64,000 nucleotides of DNA. Origin: Thermocoleostomius sinensis A174. GTDB lineage: Bacteria > Cyanobacteriota > Cyanobacteriia > Elainellales > Elainellaceae. Shown here one piece after another: positions 18,320 to 54,177 of the stretch. The stretch covers positions 4,007,026-4,071,025 of the forward strand of contig NZ_CP113797.1 of the NCBI RefSeq assembly GCF_026802175.1, given 5' to 3'. Position 1 is the stretch's first letter. Each line of letters starts with the position of its first letter. Both the position numbers and the translations under genes were made by a program. The notes beneath the pieces were generated by a model, which ran no database searches, had not been told where the DNA came from, and saw only the letters and a list, made by a program, of their open reading frames with translations.

Positions 18320-18819
18320 TACAGCGTTCCCTCCCGAATGGCATCCACAACAGGCACCGTATGCAACCCATAGACCCAGACCAACTTATCGCCCAGATAG
18401 GTTTGAAAAAATACGAGTCCCAGCAACAATAGCCCGGCTAGTAGATAGGGGAAGGGTAGTTGCTTTGGATCATGGGAGCGAATGACGTAGCGCCATCCGG
18501 TAAGCGCAGAAATAATTCCAGCTAAGGACCAACCTAACAGCGTATGTAGGTTTAAAACCGGAATGGCCGCGTCGTAGGGTTCGGACAATCCGGCTTCAAC
18601 TTGGCCAAAAATCACAGCAATAAAGATGGAGATTGTAGCGAAAAACATATTCCACCAACTCACTTCGTACAGTCGCACGTTGCGAGTTAGATAGCCAACC
18701 ACATCGCAAAGGACAGCGAAGATGACCATAGCAATCACGAAATGAACCACGATCGGGTGGATGGTATCGGGATACGGTAAATTGTGCTCGTTTAGGGGCG
18801 GAAGCAAATTTTCAAACAC
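18319..18819 (-). CDS. DUF2231 membrane protein, first gene of the ARTO operon
   Basis: A 166-residue membrane protein of the same DUF2231 family as its neighbour, with four predicted helices and the motif DTIHPIVVHFVIAM near 19-32. It is a paralogue rather than a duplicate of identical sequence. The GTG start is preceded by AGGAG at about 7-nt spacing. As the first gene it sets the operon start: the promoter must lie in the 276-nt region shared with the divergent gene at 19096. The C-terminus ends LGDKLVWVYGLHTVPVVDAI, again with a histidine near the membrane edge. The function is unknown, but the pairing with ctaCDE suggests an accessory electron-transfer or assembly role. Confidence 0.85.
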   Translation of the reverse strand: MFENLLPPLNEHNLPYPDTIHPIVVHFVIAMVIFAVLCDVVGYLTRNVRLYEVSWWNMFFATISIFIAVIFGQVEAGLSEPYDAAIPVLNLHTLLGWSLAGIISALTGWRYVIRSHDPKQLPFPYLLAGLLLLGLVFFQTYLGDKLVWVYGLHTVPVVDAIREGTL

Positions 18820-33414: not shown

Positions 33415-34506
<1,092 letters not shown>

Positions 34507-34513
34507 CTATTCT

Positions 34514-34549
34514 CTACTCCCTACTCCCTACTCTCCATTCCCTATTCCT
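34514..34549. repeat. Heptamer (STRR-like) repeats between gmd and fcl
   Basis: About five tandem or near-tandem copies of the heptamer CTACTCC / CCCTACT type occur in a row with small variants (CTACTCCCTACTCCCTACTC and onward). Short tandemly repeated heptamers of this composition are known from filamentous cyanobacteria. A G-rich degenerate variant lies just beside it at about 34430-34482. The function is unknown. Confidence 0.75.
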
Positions 34550-34593
34550 TCCAACCGCATCCCTCTACTACGATCGCCGATCGCCCTCGGTAA

Positions 34594-35679
34594 CTAGAGC
34601 GAGATGCTGCCAACGCCTTGGCGAATGGTGGCATGTTCCAAGCTAGCGTTAGCCACGATGGAGCCGTTGCTGAGGGGAATTAGCCCTAGTGCTTTGAGGT
34701 CAGCTTCTACCATCAGTTGAACTAGTTGCTCGAAGGTAACGGATGGTTCCCAGCCTAATTTCTGCTTAGCTTTGGCGGGATCACCAATCAGCAAATCAAC
34801 TTCTGCTGGCCGCAGGTAGCGCTCGTCAAATTCAACATAGTTCTGCCAATCTAAATTCACATAGCTAAACGCCAGATCGAGAAATTCTCGAATGGAATGG
34901 GTTTCCCCGGTTGCTACAACATAATCATCGGGTTCGCTGTGCTGAAGCATCATCCACATGGCGCGAACATAGTCTTTGGCATAGCCCCAATCGCGCTTGG
35001 AGTCTAAGTTACCCATGTACAGTTTCTTTTGCTGTCCGGCCACAATGCGAGCGATCGCTCGGGTGATTTTACGAGTCACGAAGGTTTCGCCACGGCGGGG
35101 CGATTCATGATTGAACAGAATGCCATTGCAGGCAAACATTCCATAGGACTCGCGATAGTTCACCGTTTGCCAATGAGCATACACTTTGGCGCACGCATAG
35201 GGACTGCGGGGGTAGAAGGGTGTGCTTTCTCGCTGCGGAACTTCTTGCACTAGCCCGAACATCTCTGACGAACCAGCTTGATAGAACCGCACTTGCGCCC
35301 CTGTCCGTCGCTGATAATCCCGGATAGCTTCTAGTAACCGCAGAGTGCCCATGCCAACAGCATCGACTGTGTATTCTGGTGCATCAAAGCTAACTCGGAC
35401 GTGGGATTGAGCACCCAGGTTATAGATTTCTGTGGGCTGAACTTCTTCTAGAATGCGGCGTAGCGTTGTGCCATCTGTGAGATCACCGTAATGCAAGAAC
35501 AGCCGGGCATCTTCTTTGTGCGGATCTTCATAAATGTGATCAATGCGATCGGTATTAAAGGTTGAAGTTCGGCGAATAATTCCATGAACTTCATAGCCTT
35601 TTTCCAGCAAAAATTCACTTAGGTAAGAACCATCTTGACCTGTAATTCCTGTGATCAGTGCACATTGCCGTTGTGTCAT
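34594..35679 (-). CDS. gmd: GDP-mannose 4,6-dehydratase
   Basis: A 361-residue extended SDR that converts GDP-D-mannose to GDP-4-keto-6-deoxy-mannose, the step before fcl. The NADP motif [18 protein letters not shown] is at about 6-23. [27 protein letters not shown] and the catalytic [15 protein letters not shown] (Y-x-x-x-K) follow, and [16 protein letters not shown] is the classic Gmd block. ATG 35679 follows AAGGGA at about 8-nt spacing and is preferred to the ATG eight codons upstream. The C-terminal tail after about 335 is variable. Confidence 0.96.
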
Positions 35680-36290
35680 GTTCGGTGTCCCTTGTAAATT
35701 CATGAGTAGAAATGGCAGAAACCTCTTAATTTTGAAGAACTTCTGCCGGAAATAGGCTTTCTAGTTTGACATTTAGACTAATACCGCATGGCGCGTTAAC
35801 TACTAGAATTCCCAGAAAATCCACCTCTGCAACCACTGTTATAGTGGTCAGGATGTAGAAAATTTCCTCGTTGTTGCTCAGCCGATCGCCCCCATCTTCA
35901 GTAGATTTACTAAGATCACAACGATCAATCCGAAAGTTTCTTTATAAACTTAGCTCAGGCTCCGACAAGAAACTTTAAAAAAATTAAAAGTTATGGTGAA
36001 GTTAGCCGCACTACTCAATTTTAGTGGTGCTGTTGCTGCTAGCGGAGTTGGGGCAAGGCAAAAGGCGTCGGATGCTGAACGTTTCGATGCTGACCATGAG
36101 TTCCAAATGCTGGCTAACTGACACAACTCATTGCTCCCTCATCCCTCAACTTCTTCGTCCTCCTGGTCTAGAAACGGAATATAGGGAAGGGCGGATTATT
36201 CTCAGTTAATCAAGTTGCAAACGAGTTCTCTGTTCGATCGCCTACTATCAAAGAAGGATGGCAAGGTTAAAGATGGGCTAATTATCAGTC
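35680..36290. other. Non-coding region between gmd and obgE
   Basis: This is the divergent promoter region of gmd and obgE, 611 nt long. No convincing gene was seen. Short open frames are present, among them one of 42 codons from ATG 35993, but none has a ribosome binding site or recognisable sequence. Confidence 0.45.
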
Positions 36291-37310: not shown

Positions 37311-37708
37311 TCGTCCTGTATAAGCCTGGTTGATTGAATGCAAGCGGCTATTAACGGCGGGTGAAGCTAGGTACAGTACTCATTCAAAGGCCCCTATAGC
37401 AACCTAAACCAAGCAAACTGATGCAAAGTAGGTGAGGTGACGTTGCTAAAATCTAACGGGATTGCTGACACAGCGTTGCACAAAGAGGAATCGCGAGGAG
37501 CAACGTGATCTGTTTAGAGTGCCACCTGATAAACTGTCACAGCAATGAGGCGCGAGACGCGCAACCGATCTGAGTCTAATGCAGGGTTGAGACTCTAATG
37601 CTTCAACGAGATGTTTGGATTTAATAGCGCTTGTCGCTAAAACACGGGTCACTGTTTGCTAAACTGAGGGACAGTTTTAGGCAAATAGACGTTTCACCCA
37701 TTGCCTCC
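37311..37708. other. Leader region before the large glycan fusion gene
   Basis: About 400 nt without a recognised gene. A small hairpin CGTTGC ... GCAACG occurs around 37472-37505. The next frame is open from a TTG at 37631, but no homology-bearing sequence precedes ATG 37709. Confidence 0.4.
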
Positions 37709-40700
37709 ATGAGTGTCACATCCTCCGGTGCTATCTCGGCATTGTTGACAGGACATTTAGTACCTCCCCGAGTCTTAATCATTGACATGACTCGTATAGG
37801 AGACTATTCAGCAACTGGGCAGATGAAACAGTCTATCTTTGGCCTTCACCCTGCAGAATGCCTACTACAAGTTTACATGGTAGGTGAACGGCAATTTGGG
37901 TTATATTCTCCAGCCTCAGATTCAGCCATCAAACAATATCAAGACTGTGATCAACTGTTAGCAGACTGTATTCAATTCGCACCGGATGTTATTTACTATC
38001 GTCCAGTTGCTGAGCGTCCATTGCTTCACACCTTTGCTGTTGCTGCTATCGCTAAACTAAGTATTCCCACAGTCATTCACATTGTAGATGATTGGCCAGA
38101 ACGGCTGCGGCTTCAGACCCCAAGCCGATATGTCCAGTTAGATCAGTCATTGCGTAGGCTACTTAATGATGCGTTTGCTTGCCTTAGTATTTGTGAGGCT
38201 ATGTCGATTGCTTATCGAGAACGGTATGGTGTTGATTTTATTGCCATTGCTAATTGCATTAAACCTGAAGATTGGCTGCCAACAAATACTCAAATTTCAA
38301 AAAAATTTTCACGGGTGCAACCTTTCACAATTCGCTATGTCGGTAGTTTAGCCGACGATATGACCTGCCAGAGTATTTTGGATGTTGCCGAAGTGATTGC
38401 TGCACTGCAAACAGAATATTCTATAAACTTTGAAATTTACACTACCAACTATTGGAAACAAAAGGCGATTAACACCTTCTCGAATCTACCAGGTGTAAGC
38501 ATTCATGAAGCAGCCTTTTCTACAGTAGCCTATCGCCAGTTGCTCATCACAGCAGACGCTCTGTTGATTGCTTACAATTTTGATCCAGACAGCGTTACTT
38601 ATGTTCGTTATTCGATGGCAAACAAATTTCCGGAATGTTTAGCATCAGGAAATCCTGTTCTGGTTTATGGTCCCATCGATGTAGCACCGATCGCTTATGC
38701 GGCGGAGATTGGTTGTACCCAATTAGTGATTGATCGCGATCCAAACAAGCTTAAAATTGCCATCTGTGCCTTAATAGATGACCCAAATTATGCTAGGGCA
38801 TTGGGACAAGCTGCCCGCGAATATGCTTTCCAACATCATTCGGAATCTGTAGTAGCAAAGCGATTTTACGAAATTCTGTGTCAAGCAGCACAATCAGCTT
38901 TACCCACTCGGCACCAGAGCGTGAGCAATTTAGTAAGTTCTGATCAGCAGTCGATACTGGGTCCTTTCACGCGGGATCAATCAGTTTGTTTAGACGAAAC
39001 TCAATTAGTCGCTGAGCTTTTGTCACATCTGCCTGAACACTCAATCATGTTAGACGTTGGGGCCCATCATGGCTCTGCTCTCCTCTCGTTTGTTGAAAAA
39101 GGATGGCGAGTGTTCGCCTATGAGCCTGATCCGGATAATCGCCAAGTTCTTGAACGACGAATGAACTCCTACACAAATCTGACGATCGACCGCCGAGCCG
39201 TTAGCGATCGAGCAGGAGAAACGGTTTCATTCTATGCTTCACCTGAGAGCACAGGCATCAGCACGCTTTCTCCCTTTCAAGACAGCCATCAGCAGAAATG
39301 CCAGGTTATAACTACAACAGTAGCTGAAATTTGTGCTGAGCATCAGTTGCACCAGATTGATTTTTTAAAGATCGATACAGAAGGACATGACTTGATGGTT
39401 TTAAAAGGAGTCCCTTGGGACAAAATTCATCCTGCTGTGATTGAATGTGAATTTGAAGACCACAAAACTGTTCCTTTGGGATATACCGTTGAAGATTTGG
39501 CTCAATATCTTGTCGATCGCGGTTACACCGTATTAGTCAGCGAATGGCATCCAATCGTTCGATATGGAATTCAGCACGATTGGCATCGCTTGATGTTATA
39601 CCCCTGCCAACTTGCTACTCCTCATGCTTGGGGAAACTTGCTAGCGTTCAAACACACCCCCGACCTAGAACAGGTTGTAGCGCTCACCCAGAAACTCATT
39701 AAAACGAAATCTGAAAAACCAATCACCCAGATTTCTCTAAAACTTTCTAACCAAGCCACGATCGAAGGACATAATGGTATGAACCCATCTCGTCTTCAGG
39801 ACAATCCGCAGCAAGATTCTACAGAATCATTGAATGGAAAGCATTCCTCTCATTCTGAGCTATCCCGACAACAGGAACCCTTCAATCCTCCCAAGTCTGT
39901 GCCTGTATTGCTCAAATTGAATGGGACTCGATTGGCTACTGGCTTGCTTGGACGGGTTGGGCGTTATTACAGCCGTTGGCCTCTCAGCATTGCCCTACTT
40001 GCCATAGGACTGAATACGATTGCCATGTTGGATGATGTCCCGTTTCGTTGGATTTTCTCTAGCGGGGGAACATTTCTTTTGGTGTTTTTGGTTGGACATG
40101 CTGCCTCCAAAGCAGATGTCGCTTTGCAAACGGGCGAACGTGCTCAAGAAACAGTGACGCAATCTCAGGAGATGACTGCACGGTTACAGAAAAAGGCAAC
40201 TTCGGCCTTCAAGCGAGCCACTCAAGCGGGTGAACGGTTAAAACTGACTACTGAGCGCGTTGATCAAGCGATAGCAGAGGCAGTGACGGTTGCAGATCGA
40301 GCAATATCAACCGCCAAATTTGCCACAGAGATGGCGAGCCGTGCCACCGGAAGCGCTCAGTCTGGCGCTCAATCAGCCAATCGCGCTATTGAAATGGCAA
40401 CTGCTTCCTTGGAAACGGCAAAAAACTGTCATGAAATAGCTCAACGATCGCTTAGCTATGCTGAGTCTGCTAGCGCTCAAACAACACAAGCCATTGCAGA
40501 TTTGAAACAGCAAATTGATCAAATGTCAATATTGAATCCAAGCAATACCAGCAATATCAAATTGTTTCAGCCATTCGGACGGCAACTCTCGCAGGAACAC
40601 ATTGAAGTTTTTACTAGCTTCTGGACATCAATGTTGAGATTGCAACTAAACCAACAAGGTTTAGGATATCTAGCGCATCGAATTTGTTTGTCAGAAGATA

Positions 40701-41296
40701 TCTGCACTGGGCGCTTGGCAACAACGGTGCAAGATATGGCACTTCGAGTTTTAGTCGCCCAAAGTCTTCGCACTCCTAACTTGTCAGTTCTAGAAATTGG
40801 TTCTCTATTTGGAATTAACCTTGCCATTATTTATGAAACTTGTCGTGATCATTTTGAGCAAATCCATTTGAGCGCAATCGATCCGTTGGATGGTTATTAC
40901 GATAAAGGCAGAACGGATGTTATTACTCAAGTTCCAGTCACGCGTAAGATTTTTGAACACAATATGCGCCAAATGGATATTGCGCCTCAAGATATTACTC
41001 TGCTTCAAGGTTTAAGTACTGAATCAGTAATTTTAGAAAAAGCAGGATTAAGGCAATACAACTTGCTAATTATTGATGGTGATCATTCCTATGCAGGAGT
41101 CAAATTTGATTTTGATCACTATTTGGCTGCTGTAGATGTAGGGGGGTATATCATCTTTGATGACTATAATTCCGAGGATTGGCCAGAGGTGACGGAATTT
41201 GTTGATAATGAAGTTAAACGGAATTCGAGCGTTGAATTCATAGGCTCAAGTTGGAGAACGGCTGTATTCAAGGTAATTCGTAAAAACCTAGTTTGA
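37709..41296 (+). CDS. Glycosyltransferase-FkbM methyltransferase-membrane-coiled-coil-methyltransferase fusion
   Basis: A protein of about 1195 residues with an unusual domain order. Residues 1-410 resemble a GT-B glycosyltransferase (VIHIVDDWPERLR; IRYVGSLADDMTCQSILDVAEV; FPECLASGNPVLVYGP). Residues 440-640 are an FkbM-type SAM methyltransferase with MLDVGAHHGSALLSF, FAYEPDPDNRQVL and DFLKIDTEGHD. Two hydrophobic stretches at about 755-800 could form a membrane hairpin. Residues 810-940 are an Ala/Thr/Gln-rich heptad region likely to be coiled coil. Residues 1000-1195 are a second, class I (MT24-like) methyltransferase with LEIGSLFGINLAI and LLIIDGDHSYAGVKFDFDHY. The frame is open back to TTG 37631; ATG 37709 is the first good start. 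It probably modifies cell-surface glycan at the membrane. Confidence 0.75.
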   Translation: MSVTSSGAISALLTGHLVPPRVLIIDMTRIGDYSATGQMKQSIFGLHPAECLLQVYMVGERQFGLYSPASDSAIKQYQDCDQLLADCIQFAPDVIYYRPVAERPLLHTFAVAAIAKLSIPTVIHIVDDWPERLRLQTPSRYVQLDQSLRRLLNDAFACLSICEAMSIAYRERYGVDFIAIANCIKPEDWLPTNTQISKKFSRVQPFTIRYVGSLADDMTCQSILDVAEVIAALQTEYSINFEIYTTNYWKQKAINTFSNLPGVSIHEAAFSTVAYRQLLITADALLIAYNFDPDSVTYVRYSMANKFPECLASGNPVLVYGPIDVAPIAYAAEIGCTQLVIDRDPNKLKIAICALIDDPNYARALGQAAREYAFQHHSESVVAKRFYEILCQAAQSALPTRHQSVSNLVSSDQQSILGPFTRDQSVCLDETQLVAELLSHLPEHSIMLDVGAHHGSALLSFVEKGWRVFAYEPDPDNRQVLERRMNSYTNLTIDRRAVSDRAGETVSFYASPESTGISTLSPFQDSHQQKCQVITTTVAEICAEHQLHQIDFLKIDTEGHDLMVLKGVPWDKIHPAVIECEFEDHKTVPLGYTVEDLAQYLVDRGYTVLVSEWHPIVRYGIQHDWHRLMLYPCQLATPHAWGNLLAFKHTPDLEQVVALTQKLIKTKSEKPITQISLKLSNQATIEGHNGMNPSRLQDNPQQDSTESLNGKHSSHSELSRQQEPFNPPKSVPVLLKLNGTRLATGLLGRVGRYYSRWPLSIALLAIGLNTIAMLDDVPFRWIFSSGGTFLLVFLVGHAASKADVALQTGERAQETVTQSQEMTARLQKKATSAFKRATQAGERLKLTTERVDQAIAEAVTVADRAISTAKFATEMASRATGSAQSGAQSANRAIEMATASLETAKNCHEIAQRSLSYAESASAQTTQAIADLKQQIDQMSILNPSNTSNIKLFQPFGRQLSQEHIEVFTSFWTSMLRLQLNQQGLGYLAHRICLSEDICTGRLATTVQDMALRVLVAQSLRTPNLSVLEIGSLFGINLAIIYETCRDHFEQIHLSAIDPLDGYYDKGRTDVITQVPVTRKIFEHNMRQMDIAPQDITLLQGLSTESVILEKAGLRQYNLLIIDGDHSYAGVKFDFDHYLAAVDVGGYIIFDDYNSEDWPEVTEFVDNEVKRNSSVEFIGSSWRTAVFKVIRKNLV

Positions 41297-41389
41297 TACG
41301 CCTGCTGAACTACATGACTCTAAGAAACAAGCTTTTTCAGAGCTTCAAACTACTGCTAAAAGCCTCAGTGAAGATTTAAGAATTTCTAT

Positions 41390-43549
41390 TTAGGCTTTAT
41401 CTAGGCTTTCAATGCTAACCTGAGAGATTGTTTGACAGTGAAAGCTAATATTGGTCAAGATGAGTTCTACTTCGTTAAAGTCATCACTACCAAATTCAAG
41501 GCTAATTCCGTCATGACTGCGTGAAACATTTAACTGGAGTGCAATCTTCTCTGTTCCTGCTTGGCAATGGAAGGTTCGTCTAACGCCTTCAAAAGGATTG
41601 CACCCTCGTGGGTAGAAACCAATCGATAGTTCGCAAGACTTGACCATCAGTAAGCTAATGTCAACCTGAATTAAATCGCCTAGTTCGATCGCTTTGTTGT
41701 AGTGTAGAACGACCCAATCTTTAGCTGAATGGTTGCCGACTACAAAGCCTTTTTGAGTGGGGTAACTTTTTCCTTCAAATTGAATTCCACAAAAAGTAAA
41801 GCCAGATGCTAATTCCTGAGCTAAAACATCAAGTAATTGAGCAAACTCTTCCGCTTTGGGTCGTACTTTAAAATCTTCAGCTAAAACCTGACGGCAGATA
41901 GAGTCACAAATGGTGCGATTATGCAAGATGTAGGATTCTGAGTAGTTTTTCCTTGAGTGTAGCAGTAGAGTAGGCTCAGCCTTCTCCAAATCCCTCTTTG
42001 CACTGTAGTTTAAGATGTAGTTAGTATAGCGAAGATAGGGTGAAATTTCTTGAAAAAGCTGCCACCCCTCAGAGCTAGGATCAACTGGTTGAAATGGTGA
42101 AGATAGATTGGAACCAAATTCGGCAGCAAAGAAGTTTTCTAGCAAGCAATCATAGGCCATGCCACTGTCAATTTTCTCAGTAGTTTCATCTAGGAGAGCC
42201 TGCCACTTTTGGACAAACTCAATGAATCGCCGATCGCCGACCGCATAAATAGCATTGCCATTGATGTGACGGGCATATTTCCGTGCTAGCGTATCTTGTC
42301 CTTTGTACGGGCTACCCAAAATCCAAAACTCTTCAGCCGTTTGCACTAAATCGTAAAGCGCTCCCAGCCAATCGGGACGTAGAGGAACACAGTCTGTTTC
42401 CATAAAGAAGGCATAATGGCAACTATCTTGAAGTGCAAAAATACCTCGAAAGAATTGTTGATTAGGTCCGCTTTTATAACCTTTCTTTCCAACTGGAAGC
42501 GATCGATCGCGAATATAGATATCTTCACCGTCCGGTAATACAAAGAAATAGAATTCTAGCTCTGAAAAACAATTTTGAAGAAGTTCACTAGTTTTAAACT
42601 CCTCAATAATTTCTTGCTTTAATGCTTCATCTTCCACGCCTGTAAACGTAAAAATCAATTTAGGTTTTTTCCGTCCCCGAAGATGAAGAAATGGTGTAAA
42701 GCCTGGAATCTGCCACAATTTAAGATTATTTAAAATTTGCTCGCGTTCTCTCACCTGCGTTGGAATAACTAGTGCCCCCAGTCCTGGTTGATCCAAAACT
42801 TTCCACAAGGGCTTGTATGGCAATATACCTCTCGCATGAAGTTCAGACTTCAAATTGCAATTAATGACTTCCACATCCAAATTTTTCAGGAGAATGTCAT
42901 CTCGCAAGGACTCAAACGAAGTAGGATGGAGATCAAAATTATGAACTTTTGGGTTTGGAATCTGAAACTTGTCTCCAGCTTGCTGATAATCATCAAAGAA
43001 ATAGTTAGGATTTCTTGATGGTGTTTTTTTCATGACAAGCTGTATTCCCTCAGTGTTTTCTGCTTCTGGAATTTGTTCAATATATTGCAGATCAATACCG
43101 AGCAGCGCAACTCGTTGATATCCTAAATAGATGGCATAGCGAACTGAGTAAGAACCAGTTGTCACTTTTGATGGTTGAGCGCTTTGAAAAATCGAACTTT
43201 CGATAAATGGTAAACCGAATTCAGCACCGCGTTTTTGATACCAATACAATAAAAACTGATCTAGAAAAACATAGCGCTTATCTTTGCTTGCATCAGGAAA
43301 AAACTCAAGAAAACGCCCGTCTAAAAACGCTGTTTTCACTTGCCCCTCTTCAACTAGCCGTTTGATAGCTTGGTGATGTGTAGCAATCAGTTCAGAGTCT
43401 AGACAGCAATAATGGGTGGGATACCAGTTAATACGATCCCAATAGCGATAGGCAGCATTCATGCCTAATGTATCAACCTTGTTGAGCGCTGCAAAATCAA
43501 ATCCTCGTAAACTCGGACCATTACCAATGACGATGATTGTTTTTTCCAT
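41390..43549 (-). CDS. Putative two-domain glycosyltransferase (DUF115/sialyltransferase-like N-terminus)
   Basis: A 719-residue protein. Residues 1-230 begin IIVIGNGPSLRGFDF and continue NAAYRYWDRINWYPTHYCC, the pattern of the DUF115/GT42-like group that includes motility-associated factor and sialyltransferase-like proteins; GSYSVRYAIYLGYQRVALLG follows. Residues 290-560 look like a separate GT-A-type domain with FFMETDCVPLRPDW (about 380-395), where ETD may serve as the metal-binding D-x-D. Residues 600-719 are beta-rich and might bind carbohydrate. No signal peptide. It is convergent with the large fusion gene 93 nt away and diverges from the GT2 gene at 43774, so it probably belongs to the same glycan pathway. 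The linkage is unknown. Confidence 0.6.
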   Translation of the reverse strand: MEKTIIVIGNGPSLRGFDFAALNKVDTLGMNAAYRYWDRINWYPTHYCCLDSELIATHHQAIKRLVEEGQVKTAFLDGRFLEFFPDASKDKRYVFLDQFLLYWYQKRGAEFGLPFIESSIFQSAQPSKVTTGSYSVRYAIYLGYQRVALLGIDLQYIEQIPEAENTEGIQLVMKKTPSRNPNYFFDDYQQAGDKFQIPNPKVHNFDLHPTSFESLRDDILLKNLDVEVINCNLKSELHARGILPYKPLWKVLDQPGLGALVIPTQVREREQILNNLKLWQIPGFTPFLHLRGRKKPKLIFTFTGVEDEALKQEIIEEFKTSELLQNCFSELEFYFFVLPDGEDIYIRDRSLPVGKKGYKSGPNQQFFRGIFALQDSCHYAFFMETDCVPLRPDWLGALYDLVQTAEEFWILGSPYKGQDTLARKYARHINGNAIYAVGDRRFIEFVQKWQALLDETTEKIDSGMAYDCLLENFFAAEFGSNLSSPFQPVDPSSEGWQLFQEISPYLRYTNYILNYSAKRDLEKAEPTLLLHSRKNYSESYILHNRTICDSICRQVLAEDFKVRPKAEEFAQLLDVLAQELASGFTFCGIQFEGKSYPTQKGFVVGNHSAKDWVVLHYNKAIELGDLIQVDISLLMVKSCELSIGFYPRGCNPFEGVRRTFHCQAGTEKIALQLNVSRSHDGISLEFGSDDFNEVELILTNISFHCQTISQVSIESLDKA

Positions 43550-43773
43550 GACACCCTTTCTTTAGCTAGTCAATCTTCAATTAGCAAAAATGATGAGAAA
43601 ACTTACATAAAAGCGGCACTCAAAAAATTCTATCCTGATTCATTAACGTATAAAGATTTGATCTGGTAGATAGGAGTGGTAAGGTAGAACTGCACCCGTC
43701 AGTGATATTAGACACAGTTAGAACGGATAAGAACCAGTTATTGACCTGTGTGGTAGAGAAGTGCGAGGTTTAG

Positions 43774-44754
43774 ATGATTCATCCCAGATGTTCTATCATC
43801 ATCCGATGTTATAACGAGGAACAGCATATCGGCCGACTGCTCGACGGCATCCAGCAACAGACGATCGCCCCCGTCGAGATCATCGTAGTAGATTCCGGTT
43901 CTACCGATCGAACCGTGGAGATTGCGCAGCAATATTCGGTAACGCTGGTATCGATTCGCCCAGAAGAGTTTTCCTTTGGGCGATCGCTCAACTTGGGATG
44001 TCAAGCGGCTTCGGCTGAGTTGATTGTAATCGCCAGTGCTCATGTGTACCCTGTCTATCGAGACTGGCTAGAGCAACTGCTGAAACCGTTTGCCGATCCA
44101 CAAATGGCGTTAGTATATGGTAAGCAGCGCGGCAATGATGTTACAAAATACTCCGAACACCAAATTTTTGCAACCTGGTTTCCTGATGACTCCAACCTCA
44201 ATCAAACTCATCCGTTCTGCAACAACGCCAATGCAGCAATTCGGCGAAAATTATGGCAGCAACTTCCCTATGATGAATCACTGACAGGCTTGGAAGATTT
44301 AGACTGGGCCAAGCGCGTCATGCAACTGGGGCATCGCATCGCCTATAGTGCTGAAGCGGAAATTATTCATGTGCATGATGAAACACCACGACGCATCTAC
44401 AATCGCTATCGCCGTGAAGCTATTGCTCTCAAGCGCATTTTTCCACAGGAGCATTTTAACGGATGGGATTTTGTGCGACTATTTGTCACTAACACCTTCA
44501 ACGACTACTATCACGCTTTTCACGATCGTGTTTTATTCAAAAACTTTCTTTCCATTCCAGTATTTCGCTTCATGCAGTTTTTAGGAACCTGTCGCGGCTT
44601 TATGCAAAGAGTTCCGGTGACGAGCCAACTGAAACAGACCTTTTACTATCCGAGAGGACTAAAGCGACATGCTCTCTCGCAAACTTCTAATTCACGACGG
44701 GCGATCGATTACACTCAGCGCGAAGAAGTCGTACTTGAGCAAATTCGTCACTAA
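43774..44754 (+). CDS. Glycosyltransferase family 2
   Basis: A 326-residue GT-A glycosyltransferase. The N-terminal nucleotide-sugar-binding signature is IIIRCYNEEQHIGRLLDG at about 7-24 and VVDSGSTDRTVEIA near 39-52. The acceptor-side block TGLEDLDWAKRVMQLGH is the usual ED-x-D-like motif in this branch. The C-terminal part is basic and may lie on the membrane. It probably transfers a sugar to a growing surface polysaccharide. ATG 43774 follows GCGAGG. It is the first gene of a run of codirectional genes (cytidylyltransferase, dehydrogenase, SDR and onward). Confidence 0.88.
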   Translation: MIHPRCSIIIRCYNEEQHIGRLLDGIQQQTIAPVEIIVVDSGSTDRTVEIAQQYSVTLVSIRPEEFSFGRSLNLGCQAASAELIVIASAHVYPVYRDWLEQLLKPFADPQMALVYGKQRGNDVTKYSEHQIFATWFPDDSNLNQTHPFCNNANAAIRRKLWQQLPYDESLTGLEDLDWAKRVMQLGHRIAYSAEAEIIHVHDETPRRIYNRYRREAIALKRIFPQEHFNGWDFVRLFVTNTFNDYYHAFHDRVLFKNFLSIPVFRFMQFLGTCRGFMQRVPVTSQLKQTFYYPRGLKRHALSQTSNSRRAIDYTQREEVVLEQIRH

Positions 44755-44799
44755 CGGTTACTTTACTTTTCTCTTTACCTGTCTATAATTAATTAATTT

Positions 44800-45489
44800 A
44801 TGAATTCATCACCTTCTTCTTTGCAAATTGCTGCGTTTGTTCCTATGCGCCACAACAGCGAACGAGTGGTGGGTAAGAATTATCGCCTGTTTGCGGGTCG
44901 TCCGTTGTATCACCACATCATCACCACCTTGCTCAACTGTCCGCAAATCAGCCTTGTCTGCATTGATACCGACAGCCCCATGATTATGGAAGATGCGGCA
45001 GCACAGTTTCCCAGTGTCAAAGTATTGGAACGTCCAGAGCATTTACGAGATGGAGCCATACCCATGAACGAGGTGTTGCTAAATTCTGTGGCTCAAGTTC
45101 CAGCCGATCTGTATTTACAAACTCATAGCACCAATCCGCTACTGCGAGCAGAAACAATTTCACAGGCAATCGAGCAATTTCTAGGACAGTCTGAGCATGA
45201 CAGCCTATTTGGAGTCACCCAGTTGCAAACCCGCCTCTACGATGCCACTGGCAGAGCCATGAATCACGATCCAGAAGTATTGCTGCGAACACAGGATTTG
45301 ACGCCTGTTTACGAAGAAAACTCTAATCTCTACCTGTTTACAAAGCAGATTCTGCAAGAACGTCGTAATCGAATCGGCTACAAGCCCATGATGTTTGCAA
45401 TCGATCGCCAGGAAGCCTGGGATATTGACGAAGAAATCGATTTCCGTGTGGCGGAATTTCTCTACACCGTGCAACAAACAAGCGCGTGA
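44800..45489 (+). CDS. NeuA-like acylneuraminate cytidylyltransferase
   Basis: A 229-residue nucleotidyltransferase of the CMP-nonulosonate/CMP-Kdo synthetase family. The CTP-binding start AAFVPMRHNSERVVGKNYRLF (about 10-30) replaces the canonical IPAR-S-R-x-KN, with Arg17 and Lys25 kept. LQTHSTNPLLRAETI near 107-121 and the C-terminal AWDIDEEIDFRVAEFL, with its metal-binding acidic residues, are typical. The enzyme should activate an acidic sugar with CTP. No sugar synthase (NeuB) or epimerase (NeuC) is present nearby. It lies 45 nt after the GT2 gene and 41 nt before the dehydrogenase, so it is likely part of one operon. Confidence 0.85.
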   Translation: MNSSPSSLQIAAFVPMRHNSERVVGKNYRLFAGRPLYHHIITTLLNCPQISLVCIDTDSPMIMEDAAAQFPSVKVLERPEHLRDGAIPMNEVLLNSVAQVPADLYLQTHSTNPLLRAETISQAIEQFLGQSEHDSLFGVTQLQTRLYDATGRAMNHDPEVLLRTQDLTPVYEENSNLYLFTKQILQERRNRIGYKPMMFAIDRQEAWDIDEEIDFRVAEFLYTVQQTSA

Positions 45490-45530
45490 CACGGGCGATA
45501 ATGCTTGTAATTTATCAATAGGTTAAATAC

Positions 45531-46493
45531 ATGAACTGGCGAGTTTTAATTACTTGTCCACCTATGATCATGACATTGGATCAGTGTCAGGATCGCCTTG
45601 CGGCCGAAGGGTTGGACGTGGTTGTACCGCAAATTCAGCAGCAGATGAGCGAGTCCGAGCTATGTAACATTATTGCTGACTTTGATGGTGTGATCGCGGG
45701 CGACGATCCGTTTACGGCCAAGGTGCTAGAGATTGGTCGCAAGGGACGCTTGCGGGTGCTGGCTAAGTGGGGCATTGGAGTGGATGCGATTGATTTAGAG
45801 GCAGCCAAGCAACTGGGCATCTATACCTCTAACACCCCCAATGTGTTTGGGGATGAAGTGGCGGATATTGCTCTGGGATATATCATTTTGCTGGCGCGGC
45901 AACTGCACCGCATGGATGCGGCAATTCGGCGCGGCGAGTGGTTGAAGATTCAAGGCACGTCTCTGCGCGGCAAAACGGCTGGGGTGGTTGGTATAGGCAG
46001 CATTGGGAAGGCAATTGTCCGGCGATTGCATACGTTGGGCATGGAGGTGTTGGGGCATGATGTGCACCCGATCGATCCGGCGTTTTGTCAGGAAACCCAT
46101 CTGAAATCTGTGGCGTTAGATCTGCTTTTGCAACAGTCCGACTGTATTGTGCTAGCTTGCAATTTGACGCCGCAAAATTATCATTTATTGAACGATCGGG
46201 CGTTTGCTCAGATGAAAAATGGCGTATGGGTTGTGAACGTGGCACGGGGAGCCTTAATTGATGAGACAGCCCTTGTGACAGCCCTTAAAGATGGCAAGGT
46301 GGGTGCTGCGGCGTTGGATGTGTTTGAGACGGAACCACTACCACTAACTAGCCCCTTACTTCGGTTTGAGCAGGTGATTTTGGGCAGCCATAATAGCTCG
46401 AACACGCGAGAAGCTGTACTACGAGTCAATCAGTTAGCGATCGATCATCTAGTTCGTGATTTGAATCGCGCAGCTAGTAGTCATGAATCGTAG
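45531..46493 (+). CDS. D-2-hydroxyacid dehydrogenase (SerA-like)
   Basis: A 320-residue NAD-dependent dehydrogenase of the D-isomer-specific family. The NAD motif VGIGSIGKAIVRRL lies near 147-160. The catalytic Arg (VNVARGALIDE), Glu (DVFETEPLP) and His (LGSHNSSNT) are all present. No ACT regulatory domain follows, so it is not a normal full-length 3-phosphoglycerate dehydrogenase. Its place between the cytidylyltransferase and the SDR suggests it makes or uses a 2-hydroxy or 2-keto acid for the glycan pathway. The actual substrate is unknown. Confidence 0.88.
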   Translation: MNWRVLITCPPMIMTLDQCQDRLAAEGLDVVVPQIQQQMSESELCNIIADFDGVIAGDDPFTAKVLEIGRKGRLRVLAKWGIGVDAIDLEAAKQLGIYTSNTPNVFGDEVADIALGYIILLARQLHRMDAAIRRGEWLKIQGTSLRGKTAGVVGIGSIGKAIVRRLHTLGMEVLGHDVHPIDPAFCQETHLKSVALDLLLQQSDCIVLACNLTPQNYHLLNDRAFAQMKNGVWVVNVARGALIDETALVTALKDGKVGAAALDVFETEPLPLTSPLLRFEQVILGSHNSSNTREAVLRVNQLAIDHLVRDLNRAASSHES

Positions 46494-46587
46494 AATACAT
46501 CAGCGCAACGCAGTGCATCAATCCCTTGCGCGGCGATGGTTTGGTTAGCCCATCCTGTCAATTACTGGTTCGAGTGACTTAGGAAAA

Positions 46588-47337
46588 ATGAACAAAATTG
46601 TACTAATTACAGGGGTTGCTGGTGGCATTGGCTATGCGACTGCTCAACACTTCAAACAAAATGGCTGGGTAGTAGTCGGCGTCGATCGCCAAGACACGTC
46701 ATCGCTACCGGACATCGATTGTCGAATTCAGGTGGATATTGCAGAACCACAGGCAATTCAAAAAGTAGTATTGCAACTGCGCCAAGAGTTTGACAACTTA
46801 CATTGTCTTGTCAACAATGCGGCGGTGCAGATCTGTAAACCCTCTCTAGAGATGACTGTAGCTGAATGGGACGAAATCATGGCGGTGAATGTGCGATCGT
46901 GCTTTTTTCTGGCTCAGGCAACGTATCCCCTGCTCAAACCCGTAGCAGGTAGTGTGGTGAATGTCAGTTCGGTTCATGCCGTTGCCACCTCTGCCAACAT
47001 TGCTGCCTATGCCACTAGCAAAGGAGCCTTGCTGGCCATGACTCGTGCCTTGGCGATCGAGTTTGCCTCTGCAAACATCCGTGTTAATGCCATTTTGCCA
47101 GGAGCCGTAGATACGAGCATGTTACGATCGGGCTTGCAGCGGGGGCATTTGAGTGGGGATTATGTAGACGAATTGCTTACCGATTTAGGCAAAAAAACCG
47201 TAATCGGGCGAGTAGGTAATCCTAGGGAAATTGCCGAAGCTATTTGGTTTCTGGCAAACAATACCTGTTCCTCCTTCATGACTGGGCAATCACTGATTGT
47301 AGACGGTGGTGCCACAGCACGACTAAGCACCGAGTAG
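46588..47337 (+). CDS. Short-chain dehydrogenase/reductase
   Basis: A 249-residue classical SDR. It has the cofactor motif TGVAGGIGYATA at 7-18, NNAA near 82-85, catalytic Ser (VNVSSVHAV) with the Tyr-x-x-x-Lys motif in AAYATSKGALLAM, and the usual C-terminal SSFMTGQSLIVDGGA. It reduces or oxidises a sugar or hydroxy-acid group with NAD(P)H. It lies 94 nt after the D-2-hydroxyacid dehydrogenase on the same strand and probably acts in the same pathway, which I cannot name. Confidence 0.9.
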   Translation: MNKIVLITGVAGGIGYATAQHFKQNGWVVVGVDRQDTSSLPDIDCRIQVDIAEPQAIQKVVLQLRQEFDNLHCLVNNAAVQICKPSLEMTVAEWDEIMAVNVRSCFFLAQATYPLLKPVAGSVVNVSSVHAVATSANIAAYATSKGALLAMTRALAIEFASANIRVNAILPGAVDTSMLRSGLQRGHLSGDYVDELLTDLGKKTVIGRVGNPREIAEAIWFLANNTCSSFMTGQSLIVDGGATARLSTE

Positions 47338-50448: not shown

Positions 50449-51516
50449 ATGGCAGTCTCAATTGTTTGGAAGCCTGTCTTTCGGGTGTTGGGCTGGTCTT
50501 TTGATCAAGAATCTGGAGCACCCTTGTTGGCAGGTAATGCCCAGTTTGTGAACCTTTCAGGACGATTGTTAGGGGCACATGTTGCCCATGCGGGATTAAT
50601 CGTGCTGTGGGCGGGTGCAATGACCCTGTTTGAGCTATCCCGGTTTAATCCCAATTTGCCGATGTACCAACAGAACTTGATTTTGCTGCCTCACTTAGCA
50701 ACGCTGGGATTTGGCGTCGGAGTCAATGGACAAATTTTCGATACCTATCCTTACTATCTGATTGGAATGCTGCACTTGATTAGTTCTGCTGTGCTGGGAG
50801 CGGGCGGAATTTATCATGCTGTGCTGGGGCCCGAAGTCCTAGATGAAAGAGGGTTTGGCTATAACTGGAATGATGGCAACAAAATGACCACCATCTTGGG
50901 AATTCATTTGGTCTTGCTGGGAGGCGGGGCACTGCTGCTAGTGCTTAAGGCAACCCAATGGGGTGGGCTGTATGATCCGTTGGTTGATCAGGTGCGATTG
51001 ATTCAGCCTAACTTAAATCCAGCCCGGATTTTTGGCTATTTGTTTGGCTTTAGCCCTAATGGCTGGACAATAACGGGAATGGCCAGTGTGAATAATTTAG
51101 AAGATGTGATTGGTGGTCACGTTTGGGTCAGCCTTCTATGTATTATTGGCGGAATTTATCACATTTTCTCTAAACCGCTCGATTGGGCAAAGCGGGCATT
51201 GGTCTGGTCAGGAGAAGCCTACCTTTCCTATAGCCTAGGTGCGCTGGCGATCGCAGGTTTCAGTGTGGCGTGCTTTGTTTCAGTCAATGACATTGTCTAT
51301 CCCAACGTCTTTTACGGTCCTGTGAGCGGTTCACCAGTCCGTGCTGCCCTTGCCAGTGTCCATGCTGCCCTAGGATTTTTGGCATTAATCGGACATCTCT
51401 GGCACGCCTACCGAGCACGTTCAGCGGAACGCGGTGTGCAGGCTAATACATTCTTTGATTTCATGGCGAAGGATGTGACGTTAGCAGTACCTGCGGGGTT
51501 GCAAAGCCAAGAGTGA
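50449..51516 (+). CDS. CP43-like chlorophyll-binding antenna protein (IsiA/Pcb family) 1
   Basis: A 355-residue six-helix chlorophyll protein of the CP43-prime family, which forms rings or arcs of light-harvesting units around photosystem I. It shows the family pattern: [79 protein letters not shown] and the final [10 protein letters not shown]. Many helix histidines that ligate chlorophyll are visible. The protein lacks the large lumenal loop of true CP43. The first 25 residues are a distinct leader-like extension. ATG 50449 follows CAAAGGAAA. It is the first of three codirectional antenna genes, 59 nt before the next. Confidence 0.9.
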
Positions 51517-51575
51517 GGAACAGAAAGTCTCACTCATCCCCATTCAATAGGATTTAACGAGGAGAGTAACTCATT

Positions 51576-52607
51576 ATGACAACAGCAACTCAAGCCATCG
51601 ATTCAATTCCTTGGCGAGCGGGGAATGCTCGTTTAGTTAACCTTTCTGGAATGTTATTGGGTGCCCATGTTGCCCATGCTGGGCTAATTGTCTTATGGGT
51701 GGGTGCGATCACCCTGTTTGAAGTAGCGGGTTTCAAGCCAGATCAACCGATGTATGAGCAGGGATTAATTGTGTTGCCCAATCTGGCGCGATTAGGATTT
51801 GGTGTGGGTAACGGTGGCGCAATTGTGGATACCTATCCCTATTTTGTGATTGGTGTTTTACATCTGATTAGTTCTGCTTTTTTGGGTGCGGGTGGTCTCT
51901 TTCATGTGTTCAAAGGTCCCAAAAAACTGGAAGATCGGTTTCCCTTTTTTGGGTATCGCTGGGATGATGCTAACAAGATGACAACGATTCTCGGTATTCA
52001 TCTAGTGGTGTTAGGTACGGGTGCATTGTTGTTAGTCGCCAAAGCGATGATCTTTGGTGGGCTTTACGATCCACTCATTCAAAAAGTGCGTCTAATTACC
52101 AATCCAACACTGAATCCAGCGGTAATTTTTGGTTATCTGCTGGGTACACAAGGAAAGTTCTGGATTGCTAGTGTGGACAATCTCGAAGATGTTGTAGGAG
52201 GGCATATCTGGGTAGGTCTGATGTGCATTCTCGGCGGTATCTGGCATATGCGTACGACTCCATTTACCTGGGCAAAACGACTGTTTGTCTGGTCAGGGGA
52301 AGCGTACTTATCCTACAGCATTGGCGCGGTAAGTCTGATGGCGTTCGTGGCAACGTTGTTTGTCTCGGTCAATTCACTAGTATTTCCAACTGAGTTTTAT
52401 GGTCCTACCTTGTCATTGGTGTTCGATCGCTTCCCAGTTTTTGTTAGTCCAGACGGTGAGTTAACCGCGCGGGTCTGGCTCGCCAATGCGCACTTTTGGC
52501 TAGGTTTCTTTTTCCTGCAAGGGCACCTATTTCATGCACTGCGAGCAGCAGGCTACAGCTTTGCAGAAGGACGGGTTCTCGCTTCTACTCGTGGGCAGGT
52601 GAGTTGA
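51576..52607 (+). CDS. CP43-like chlorophyll-binding antenna protein (IsiA/Pcb family) 2
   Basis: A 343-residue paralogue of the preceding gene with the same six-helix layout: [59 protein letters not shown]-type loop near 185-205, and [19 protein letters not shown] at the end. A longer insert ([19 protein letters not shown]) lies before the last helix, where canonical IsiA also has a loop. The GAGGAG ribosome binding site precedes the ATG. The next gene starts one base after its stop, so the two are coupled. Likely role: additional chlorophyll antenna for PSI. Confidence 0.9.
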
Positions 52608-52608
52608 A

Positions 52609-54177
52609 ATGACAATTGCAAATGTAACACCCGACAGCACAGCGCCTTCGCTGGAGTTTCCAGGCAGTACGCCCGAAACACGCTATGTCAAAGATTCTGT
52701 CGATCCCTATTCTTGGTGGGCGGGTAACTTCCGCTTTGCCAATCTGTCAGGTAAGTTATTGGGTGCCCATGTTGCCCATGCAGGATTAATCGTGCTGTGG
52801 GCAGGTGCAATGACCCTGTTTGAGTTATCCCAGTTTAATCCCAATTTGCCGATGTATGACCAGGGCTTGATTTTATTGCCCCATCTGGCTAGTTTGGGGT
52901 TTGGGGTCGGAGCCGATGGGCAAATTATTAGCACCTATCCTTACTTTGCGATCGGTGTTGTTCACCTGATTAGTTCATCAATTTTAGGAGCCGGCGGCAT
53001 TTACCATGCAGTTTTGGGACCAGAAAAACTAGATGAAAAGGGGTTTGGTTACAACTGGGAAGATGGTGGCAAAATGACTTCTATTCTTGGCATTCATCTA
53101 GTACTGCTGGGAATGGGAGCATTGCTGCTAGTGCTTAGGGCAACTCGACTAGGGGGGGTGTATGATCCGGCGATCGCCGATGTTCGTCTCATTACCAATC
53201 CCACGCTGAATCCACTCACGATTTTTGGCTATCTGGTGGGCATCACGCCTGACGGTTGGACACTTCAGGGTATGGCAGCCGTCCACAACCTGGAAGATGT
53301 TGTGGGAGGTCATATTTGGGTGGGCGCCCTGTGCATTCTGGGTGGCATCTGGCATATCTATACAAGACCAACCAACTGGGCGAAAGGCTTATTTGTCTGG
53401 TCAGGAGAAGCTTATTTGTCCTACAGTCAGGCAGCACTAGCGTATATGGGCTATTTTGCTGCTTACTTTGTTTGGGTGAATGAAACGGTGTATCCCTCGG
53501 TGTTCTATGGCCCTGTTGGTACTACCACTGTCGATGGGGTGATTACTCCGCGTACTTGGCTGATGCTATTTCATGTTATCTTTGCCAGTCTGCTGCTGGC
53601 AGGGCATTTCTGGCACGCCTTGAGGTCCCGGGCGATCGCTGCTGGATTTGTCTTTAGCAAGATGACGTTCAATTCCGATGCCATGCTGGGTGATAGCCAG
53701 TTTAATGGCATACCTCTGTTTACAGGCATTGTGCAGCCTGACCGTAGCGATGTTCAGCAGGGCAACCTAGCAACTCCGATCAACACCAGCGACATTAGCC
53801 TCACTTGGATCAAAAACCTTCCCATCTATCGATCGGGGTTGTCTCCCATTACACGGGGGCTAGAGATTGGTATGGCACATGGCTATCTACTGCTAGGCCC
53901 ATTCCTCAAACTAGGCCCATTGCGAAACACTGATGCTGCTCTCATCGGTGGCTTTGGCGGTGCATCAGGCTTGGTTGTGATTCTCAGTGTTTGTCTGTTT
54001 CTATATGGGTTTGCGGTCTTTCAAGGTAGACCCAAACCACGTGGAGTCTTACCCGGTAATCTCAAGACCTACAAAGACTGGAGTTTGTTTACGTCAGGAT
54101 TTCTGATTGGTGGTCTTGGGGGTGTGCTGTTTGCCAGCTTTATTGTCCTAGAAATTAGCCGAGCAGGTCTTAGTTGA
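52609..54177 (+). CDS. CP43-like antenna fused to a PsaL domain (IsiA-PsaL)
   Basis: A 522-residue fusion. Residues 1-350 are a full CP43-prime unit ([62 protein letters not shown]). After a 35-residue linker, residues 385-522 form a PsaL domain with [54 protein letters not shown] and the third helix [18 protein letters not shown]. PsaL is the PSI subunit that holds trimers together, so the fusion could replace PsaL and plug the antenna straight into the core, changing PSI oligomer state. CP43-prime/PsaL fusions have been described in some filamentous cyanobacteria. It starts 1 nt after the previous stop and is followed by a hairpin. Confidence 0.93.

Follow-up and report, generated by a model that had tools for sequence, protein, structure and literature searches.

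Coiled-coil chain terminators hold the terminating enzyme at the distal end of the coil and the polymerase modules at its membrane end, and the Wzt CBM reads the cap, as described in passages of PMC11231755 and PMC3482155. In WbdD of E. coli O9a and K. pneumoniae O3, a methyltransferase-kinase with a coiled-coil ruler, an amphipathic helix serves as the anchor and a separate polymerase is recruited. In WbbB of K. pneumoniae O12 and ORF6 of K. pneumoniae O7, polymerising and terminating modules are joined in one chain with a coiled coil between them, with an N-terminal terminator (a Kdo transferase in O12, a methyltransferase-kinase in O7) and C-terminal glycosyltransferases (passages of PMC11231755). 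A different principle is represented by CAAD, a two-transmembrane-helix module with a coiled coil, which has been domain-shuffled onto different cyanobacterial enzymes and takes them to a membrane, according to the passages of PMC4893482 cited here. In mycobacterial methylmannose polysaccharide synthesis, to which ManT also belongs, MeT1 blocks the 1-OH of the polysaccharide precursor (PMC9883506, in part).

The stretch of DNA analysed, 64,000 nucleotides from the cyanobacterium Thermocoleostomius sinensis A174 (the window), encodes a giant fusion protein of 1195 aa (37709..41296, + strand, from the first ATG) which invites comparison with these systems. It consists of a GT-B-type transferase, an FkbM methyltransferase, a two-helix membrane hairpin, a heptad coiled coil of about 145 residues and a Methyltransf_24-type O-methyltransferase, in this order. 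Like WbdD, it combines a methyltransferase, a coiled coil and a (putative) polymerising enzyme at the membrane-proximal end of the coil (PMC3482155 and PMC11231755, in part), but it has two methyltransferases and no kinase match, a hairpin in place of the amphipathic helix, the glycosyltransferase in the same chain, and the distal enzyme at the C-terminus rather than the N-terminus. Compared with WbbB and ORF6, with which it shares the one-chain arrangement, its polarity is reversed and its anchor is a hairpin. We read the giant as an enzyme anchored in the membrane that would assemble and cap a glycan of the kind exported by ABC transporters, a tentative reading to which we give not quite an even chance.

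Reading frame, module order and relatives

The frame is open from 37628 to 41293 and is followed by a stop codon, with no internal stops in the ORF analysis; an alternative TTG start at 37631 would yield a protein of 1221 aa, and residue numbers are counted from the ATG at 37709. Orthologues in CCP2 (55% identity) and in a Pseudomonadales MAG (35%) align over almost the entire chain and keep the module order, which shows that the fusion is not due to chance; the retention of the order in other genomes likewise rules out an artefact or frameshift fusion. An origin from a phage or plasmid was also rejected, as seven plasmid and two phage records match partially and none covers 80% of the giant. 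Among the best 80 of 229 relatives in viral contigs, the top one spans 161 methyltransferase residues at 32% identity. The initial annotation had placed the five parts in one chain in this order, and the open reading frame, the Pfam and TIGR profiles, fold searches, hydropathy, periodicity and orthologues bear this out. Its remark that no described protein has this order is consistent with the open-licence literature searched, in which the order was not found described.

The N-terminal module (residues 19-395, boundaries approximate; 37763..38893, + strand), which is common to CCP2 and the Pseudomonadales MAG, has a glycosyltransferase-4-like Pfam match (Glyco_trans_4_4, residues 89-176, E 2.1e-5) that falls below the cut-off (25.4 bits against 29.7). 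The call as a glycosyltransferase therefore rests on the predicted fold, and the claim is for a putative GT-B fold and not for membership of family 4. For structure prediction, an Acuticoccus sequence with the glycosyltransferase only and a stand-alone FkbM protein of CCP2 were removed from the alignment (A5 to A6). Foldseek with the model of residues 1-660 (pLDDT 67.6, pTM 0.41) returned ManT (7qsg) as the best match, which was also matched by the sequence profile (E 0.0022). Four of the 50 matches listed are GPCR entries, probably owing to a fused GT-B crystallisation partner; the remainder of those listed are GT-B glycosyltransferases and UDP-GlcNAc 2-epimerases with a GT-B fold.

The FkbM methyltransferase module (residues 429-650; 38993..39658, + strand), in which many residues are invariant among the five giants described below, is identified above cut-off by both PF05050 (FkbM/Methyltransf_21, residues 449-607, E 2.9e-21, 76.8 bits against 22.7) and TIGR01444 (E 8.8e-23, 81.3 bits against 37.7). 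It is followed by a poorly conserved linker rich in Ser, Asn and Gln (residues 651-745; 39659..39943, + strand).

The order of FkbM, hairpin, coil and methyltransferase within one ORF recurs in five of the seven loci found, namely the window, CCP2, a cyanobacterial MAG, an alphaproteobacterial MAG and the Pseudomonadales MAG, and it stays the same even though the N-terminal glycosyltransferase modules differ among the five giants. The family search and the order search returned the same 36 genomes. Desulfovibrionaceae L035 is included in alignment A4 but, as its ORF runs up to the edge of the contig, it was scored as undecidable. Separate genes for the two halves in orthologues, which the initial annotation had named as evidence against its own reading, occur in part once, in the cyanobacterium LEGE 07170: hairpin, coil and methyltransferase form a gene of their own there (454 aa), and no ORF of that locus was found to be homologous to the FkbM half. 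The presence of the order in Cyanobacteria, Alphaproteobacteria and Pseudomonadales supports the capping reading.

The coiled coil and the distal methyltransferase

The coil (residues 807-951; 40127..40561, + strand) is rich in Ala, Thr, Ser and Gln and contains a single Pro. Across residues 800-951 the hydrophobic period is 3.52, and none of 2000 composition-preserving shuffles was equally strong. The AlphaFold model shows a helix that continues from the second membrane helix, with low confidence (block means mostly 47-65). Hydropathy, heptad periodicity and this model, low in confidence for the coil, thus agree with the initial annotation in making the middle region a membrane hairpin followed by a coiled coil. 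If straight, about 145 residues would extend for about 20 nm, calculated at 1.5 Å per residue.

Among orthologues the length of the coil varies almost threefold, from 71 to 201 residues. This spread is compatible with different chain lengths but fits a spacer free of any length constraint equally well, and it counts for a reading in which the giant is a fusion of several enzymes tethered to the membrane and would add and methylate sugars in repeat units or in a short lipid-linked oligosaccharide, where the coil would oligomerise and space the domains with no control of length. Against this stands the finding that a coil separates the hairpin from the distal enzyme in each of the five full-length proteins and also in the split gene of LEGE 07170, although its periodicity is weakest in the latter (53 of 2000 shuffles as strong). 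Further evidence on both sides comes from the hairpin and the export genes, and taken together we consider a fusion without length control rather doubtful.

The distal domain (residues 952-1195; 40562..41293, + strand) is a class I O-methyltransferase of the Methyltransf_24 or MycF-NovP-MeT1-like type, with a PF13578 match above cut-off (residues 1028-1153, E 5.3e-13, 50.2 bits against 26.3) and matches to the TylF and RMNT_CmcI profiles below cut-off. MeT1 (6g80) is the best Foldseek match (E 5.8e-9), and Z scores are about 20 against SpnH, MycF and MeT1. The nearest folds are mostly sugar O-methyltransferases (MeT1, SpnH, MycF, NovP), but non-sugar enzymes such as catechol and caffeoyl-CoA O-methyltransferases and TrmR score just slightly lower, and a shared fold is no demonstration of function. 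MeT1 and ManT thus come first for the distal domain and the N-terminal model, respectively; they are, however, separate proteins (14-18% identity), further enzymes that share these folds come almost level with them, and their rank is no proof of a common substrate. WbdD is absent from the ten PDB sequences matched by profile A4 at E up to 1, which does not exclude a relationship. The fold searches were dominated by the methyltransferase domain, with the hairpin and coil not probed separately, and the absence of WbdD from those lists is uninformative.

As the distal domain also resembles the macrolide and aminocoumarin sugar O-methyltransferases MycF, SpnH and NovP, the giant could instead tailor a secreted glycolipid or a secondary metabolite, held near its lipid substrate by the hairpin. 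This is very improbable in our judgement, since the neighbouring genes that are conserved code for nucleotide-sugar enzymes and glycosyltransferases, and a Pfam scan covering 29 of the window's 46 ORFs of at least 150 aa found no polyketide or peptide synthetase domain.

A membrane hairpin shared within the gene cluster

The hairpin module (residues 746-806, 61 residues; 39944..40126, + strand) is recognised in the giant of the window by its HMM with E 1.3e-32. Hydropathy peaks lie inside residues 756-806, and the AlphaFold model gives two helices. Membrane association at the proximal end of the coil is thus predicted by hydropathy and model, with a second helix that is marginally hydrophobic (best 19-residue mean 1.56); in six of 11 copies this helix is weakly hydrophobic (best mean 1.20-1.46) and therefore may not span the membrane.

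The HMM finds the hairpin in 11 proteins of four genomes, every one of them on contigs of the giant's gene cluster (alignment A1 has 12 rows, as the hairpin of the window was entered twice). Its carriers are methyltransferases, an MptE-like protein and sulfotransferase or capsule-type proteins, and three orthologues of carriers are without it; a 225-aa methyltransferase of CCP2 without the hairpin is 19 residues shorter than its MAG counterpart and was not counted as a clean hairpin-free orthologue. That the module is shared across the cluster and is not specific to the giant had been missed in the earlier reading of the sequence. The hairpin also sits on single methyltransferases whose chain ends shortly past it, so these clusters evidently benefit from membrane anchoring by itself, which again favours a fusion without length control.

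Comparisons outside the cluster gave little. There was no credible Pfam match for eight hairpin segments, and the best match of the hairpin profile in the PDB, PsbC with E 0.22, was taken as a chance membrane match. The cyanobacterial hairpin profile fails to recognise the hairpins of the two proteobacterial giants (best E 1.4 and 1.7 in their loci), so homology of the hairpins across phyla is conjectural. The likeness to the CAAD domain of cyanobacterial aminoacyl-tRNA synthetases lies in the concept of a shuffled two-helix membrane module (PMC4893482, in part); CAAD is carried by tRNA synthetases, the hairpin by glycan-type enzymes that belong to a single gene cluster. For eight hairpin segments (six of the 11 shared copies and the two proteobacterial ones), the matches listed with E values of up to 10 include no CAAD, in a search where HMMER filters drop weak matches.

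The hairpin behaves like a membrane tag that is private to the cluster and has been shuffled within it. Ala17, Asn24, Leu49 and Gly51 (module numbering) are invariant in all 11 copies and may be helix-packing residues. It is possible, though on balance we doubt it, that the hairpin is a docking tag copied among unrelated neighbouring enzymes which, through these conserved residues, gathers them into a single assembly line at the membrane, for which the giant would be scaffold and ruler and the hairpin would fix the zero point of the ruler, as a CAAD-like system for polysaccharide synthesis. The literature searched yielded no description of such a principle of addressing enzymes in bacterial glycan assembly.

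Gene neighbourhood and a possible model for chain capping

Downstream of the giant lie genes for an MptE-like (Maf-type) protein of 719 aa (41390..43549, - strand; 58-60% identity to LEGE proteins), a family 2 glycosyltransferase (43774..44754, + strand; PF00535; in two other cyanobacterial loci with 72-74% identity), a CMP-sugar-type cytidylyltransferase (44800..45489, + strand; PF02348, E 4.7e-34; 82, 77 and 42% identity), a D-2-hydroxyacid dehydrogenase (45531..46493, + strand; PF02826; 73 and 45%) and a short-chain dehydrogenase (46588..47337, + strand; PF13561; 67 and 37%). The last three are also present in the alphaproteobacterial locus, which counts for the capping reading. The MptE-like protein of the window has no hairpin, whereas its counterpart in LEGE 07170 ends in one.

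This neighbourhood raises the question of a protein-glycosylation complex, in which MptE/Maf-like domains would move a CMP-activated acidic sugar onto a surface protein and the giant would extend and methylate the glycan. The giants of CCP2 (two stretches, E 4e-32) and of the cyanobacterial MAG (3.8e-13) include fused MptE-like domains, as does that of the Pseudomonadales MAG with a match below cut-off (1.2e-5); in the window the MptE-like gene adjoins the giant and the cytidylyltransferase is linked. A Maf enzyme is described as accepting NeuAc and Kdo as donors in part of PMC11339370. The MptE match in the window is weak, however (PF01973, E 0.0033, below cut-off), and the export genes present at two loci speak for a chain linked to a lipid, which makes protein glycosylation unlikely.

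These export genes, an ABC-2 permease (E 1.9e-10 and 1.4e-8) and a Wzt with a Wzt_C domain (30.4 and 35.3 bits, cut-off 30.4), lie shortly upstream of the giant in both proteobacterial loci (L033 and L034). They strengthen the analogy to WbdD that the initial annotation had drawn, and they argue against a fusion without length control. At the window locus itself the analogy finds no such backing, which in turn favours that alternative: no homologues of the proteobacterial permease or Wzt were found by blastp (E 1e-10) among ORFs of at least 150 aa in the window and three other cyanobacterial contigs (14.8-26.7 kb). Genome-wide Wzt matches sit away from the giant's locus. In the genome of the window the sole Wzt_C match is below cut-off (25.1 bits against 30.4) and 3.3 Mb along the contig, and the permease-like gene beside it has no Pfam match at E 0.01.

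In the capping reading, the N-terminal glycosyltransferase and the FkbM methyltransferase would lie at the inner membrane face by a growing chain, presumably a lipid-linked polymer, and would add and methylate sugars. The hairpin would enter the membrane and turn back, its second helix continuing into the coil, which would keep the C-terminal O-methyltransferase distant from the membrane. The distal enzyme would act at the chain end and methylate only chains long enough to reach it, so that the coil would set the length of the glycan; the methyl group would end chain growth and serve as an export mark that the C-terminal domain of Wzt may read. Support comes from the geometry, which is that of the characterised terminator class, with a putative polymerase on one side of the coil and the modifying enzyme on the other in all five giants, from the periodicity of the coil and from distal folds that are mostly sugar O-methyltransferases. 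The reading is weakened by the lack of a permease or Wzt match at the window locus, the varying coil length, the weak second helix, the nearly equal scores of non-sugar O-methyltransferases for the distal domain and the low confidence of the coil model.

If the capping reading is true, the coiled-coil chain-terminator principle of enterobacterial O antigens would extend to a family in two phyla and three classes, with reversed polarity, a hairpin anchor and a different predicted cap chemistry, namely plain O-methylation by a MycF/MeT1-type enzyme. The coils of 71 to 201 residues would then form a natural length series for probing the ruler idea. The shared hairpin would offer a genetic tag, ready for use, with which to place enzymes in one membrane complex, and it provides a testable claim on how the enzymes of cyanobacterial surface polysaccharides come together.

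Domain order and predicted folds of the giant protein

The open reading frame at 37709-41296 (+), here called the giant, is real and without interruption, and encodes 1195 residues from the first ATG. Pfam and NCBIfam searches placed an FkbM domain at residues 449-607 and a Methyltransf_24 domain at residues 1028-1153, both well above cut-off, and a glycosyltransferase-4-like match at residues 89-176 that lies under it. All seven alignment rows share the same Asp and His residues in the motifs IDGDHxY and FDDY of the distal methyltransferase.

The AlphaFold model of residues 1-660, built from a five-row alignment (mean pLDDT 67.6, pTM 0.41), resembles GT-B enzymes, with the methylmannose polysaccharide mannosyltransferase ManT (7qsg) as the first Foldseek match listed (E 6.1e-9) and HepE, PglA and others close behind among the matches listed. 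The model from the hairpin to the C-terminus (seven-row alignment, mean pLDDT 75.1) comprises a short helix at residues 758-772, a second helix that starts at 780 and continues to 878, a further helix at 883-941 and a confidently predicted methyltransferase domain. Nearest to this domain by Foldseek is MeT1 (E 5.8e-9); by VIA-align 2, SpnH (Z 20.2, rmsd 3.1, 187 aligned), MycF (Z 20.2, rmsd 3.2, 193 aligned) and MeT1 (Z 20.0, rmsd 3.0, 195 aligned) are tied as nearest folds, with non-sugar O-methyltransferases from Z 19.6 downward. By sequence, the nearest PDB entry is NovP (E 3.8e-4). MeT1 and ManT, which head the fold matches for the distal methyltransferase and the glycosyltransferase half (from models m1f429fa4cfca and m590bbdc115ee), both belong to mycobacterial methylmannose polysaccharide synthesis, which is perhaps a coincidence, as the ranks of these modelled domains are near-tied with other enzymes.

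Relatives and the coiled coil

Five of the 98 related genomes searched, the window's own included, gave a match to the giant at E <= 1e-10 (its own, G010, G021, G062 and G038), that in G038 being restricted to FkbM. In a scan of 84,980 species genomes, the hairpin-to-end alignment gave 66 matching stretches, among which six loci encode a relative, or seven loci with the window counted in; the scan was based on two short peptide patterns, and distant relatives will therefore be missed. FkbM, hairpin, coil and Methyltransf_24 domain follow one another within one ORF at five of the seven loci, namely the window, CCP2 (2131 aa), an uncultured cyanobacterium MAG (2208 aa), an Alphaproteobacteria MAG (1507 aa) and a Pseudomonadales MAG (1691 aa), the taxon names of the MAGs possibly being wrong. 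LEGE 07170 has a separate 454-aa gene for hairpin, coil and methyltransferase, and blastp at E 1e-10 found no homologue of the FkbM half among the ORFs of this locus. The Desulfovibrionaceae ORF reaches the contig edge and is thus uninformative on module order. The N-terminal modules differ: the window's glycosyltransferase is common to CCP2 and the Pseudomonadales MAG, and the remaining two giants have different ones. MptE-like domains are fused to the giant in CCP2 (two stretches), in the cyanobacterial MAG and, below cut-off, in the Pseudomonadales MAG. Neither this architecture nor a hairpin shared among glycan enzymes was described in the titles and opening lines of abstracts listed from open-licence PubMed Central.

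Residues 800-951 of the giant show a hydrophobic period of 3.52, and none of 2000 shuffles was equally strong. The same count (0/2000) was obtained for CCP2 (201 residues) and the cyanobacterial MAG (147 residues), against 2/2000 for the Alphaproteobacteria MAG (71 residues, best period 3.62), 3/2000 for the Pseudomonadales MAG (115 residues) and 53/2000, a weak periodicity, for the 454-aa LEGE 07170 protein (116 residues); these spans were set by us from the hairpin end to the first conserved methyltransferase residue, and their lengths are uncertain by a few residues.

A hairpin shared within the cluster

An iterated profile started from the window's hairpin (residues 746-806) found 11 copies when run against the ORFs of the window and of the three related cyanobacterial loci. 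Besides the three giants of the cyanobacteria and the 454-aa protein of LEGE, the carriers are a glycosyltransferase-sulfotransferase fusion (1615 aa), an NKWYS capsule-type protein, a Methyltransf_24 protein, two Methyltransf_11 proteins, an FkbM protein and an MptE-like protein, which shares 58% identity with that of the window and matches Pfam under the cut-off (E 0.0097); the hairpin is C-terminal, near the N-terminus or mid-protein. Helix 1 has a clearly hydrophobic character in each of the 11 copies (1.57-2.11) and helix 2 in five (1.56-2.25), the remaining six reaching 1.20-1.46; to judge from sequence, helix 2 may therefore be re-entrant or surface-bound. Both proteobacterial giants have a hydrophobic hairpin at the equivalent place, the sequences of which gave no match to the hairpin profile.

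At E <= 1e-5 the hairpin occurs in 4/388 genomes of a class draw, 3/36 of the family, 1/386 of a phylum draw (the window's own) and 1/145 in a search around G062, these draws overlapping and the two large ones having at most 15 candidates scored per genome. Every whole-genome match sits on the contig of the giant's cluster, with one match in the window genome. Profile A4, which contains the hairpin, found the same 4/388 genomes and no others at E <= 1e-20, an agreement that is thus partly built in.

Pairwise identity between hairpins ranges from 23 to 82%. The 82% pair belongs to the FkbM and Methyltransf_11 proteins of CCP2, and since the likeness spans 121 residues and extends into the linker, it points to recent copying between neighbouring genes. 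Orthologues also differ in carrying the hairpin: MptE-like proteins have it in LEGE and not in the window (58% identity, 555 columns), Methyltransf_24 proteins in LEGE and not in the MAG (69%, 226 columns), and Methyltransf_11 proteins in CCP2 and LEGE and not in the Alphaproteobacteria MAG (37-38%, 215 columns). The last ~160 residues of the window's MptE-like protein (41390-43549 (-)) are unlike the LEGE 07170 counterpart, which has the hairpin there, an apparent domain swap. In CCP2 (L015), shortened Methyltransf_11 and Methyltransf_24 gene copies at 6908-7468 and 9966-10643 may reflect duplication and decay still under way in the cluster. The LEGE 07170 locus (L016) encodes the sulfotransferase fusion (3164-8011), the NKWYS protein (13054-14499) and a further sulfotransferase (17056-18390), and its product is therefore probably sulfated as well as methylated.

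The G+C content of 37709-47337 is 0.447, compared with 0.483 elsewhere in the window; equally low values occur in 20/272 sliding windows of the same length, all 20 overlapping this stretch. No hairpin match was found in G002, of LEGE 07170's genus. The low G+C and the patchy distribution suggest horizontal transfer. The window genome is a single contig of 5.81 Mb, marked as cyanobacterial by CP43-like and PsaL genes within the window, where 50449-54177 (+) holds three tandem CP43/IsiA-like antenna genes, the last of which (522 aa) carries a fused PsaL domain. An nSTAND1 NTPase of 1787 aa with a long WD40 tail (684-6047 (+)) is possibly a conflict or signalling protein.

Gene neighbourhoods, transporter and proposed function

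Ahead of the alphaproteobacterial giant lie genes for a cytidylyltransferase, a hydroxyacid dehydrogenase, an ABC-2 permease (E 1.9e-10), a Wzt, a glycosyltransferase and a methyltransferase; a short-chain dehydrogenase gene comes after it. The Pseudomonadales giant follows genes for an ABC-2 permease (E 1.4e-8) and a Wzt as well as a second FkbM gene (E 1.6e-11). The two Wzt proteins score 30.4 and 35.3 bits against the carbohydrate-binding domain Wzt_C, for which the cut-off is 30.4. The window's cytidylyltransferase, hydroxyacid dehydrogenase and short-chain dehydrogenase are 42, 45 and 37% identical to the alphaproteobacterial proteins and 82, 73 and 67% to those of LEGE 07170. Ahead of Obg and the giant, two genes at 33415-35703 (-) encode a GDP-mannose 4,6-dehydratase (PF16363, E 9.9e-151) and an epimerase that looks like GDP-fucose synthase; they might supply this glycan or a different one.

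The proteobacterial permease and Wzt had no match among ORFs of at least 150 aa on the window and three other cyanobacterial contigs (blastp E 1e-10). The one Wzt_C match of the window genome, at ~768 kb (25.1 bits, below cut-off), lies in a 433-aa ATPase that is 35% identical to the alphaproteobacterial Wzt across 399 residues. This Wzt-like ATPase (locus L118, 8918-11073; G000:C1 ~767-769 kb), whose long C-terminus is weakly Wzt_C-like, is preceded by a permease-like gene, without a Pfam match at E 0.01, and followed by an apparent family 2 glycosyltransferase gene. Long Wzt-like ORFs (411-482 aa) occur in all three related cyanobacterial genomes, never on the giant's contig.

A plainer reading, with the coil as no more than a spacer within an anchored fusion, is not far behind the favoured one, most of all for the window's own protein, whose locus lacks the transporter. 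The matching Wzt in the proteobacterial relatives favours the giant as a membrane-bound glycan-assembly enzyme with the distal O-methyltransferase as chain cap. For this putative capping enzyme, we infer everything between the substrate and the control of chain length: the hairpin would set the base of a ruler, and the distal O-methyltransferase would cap chains once their growth has brought them within its reach.
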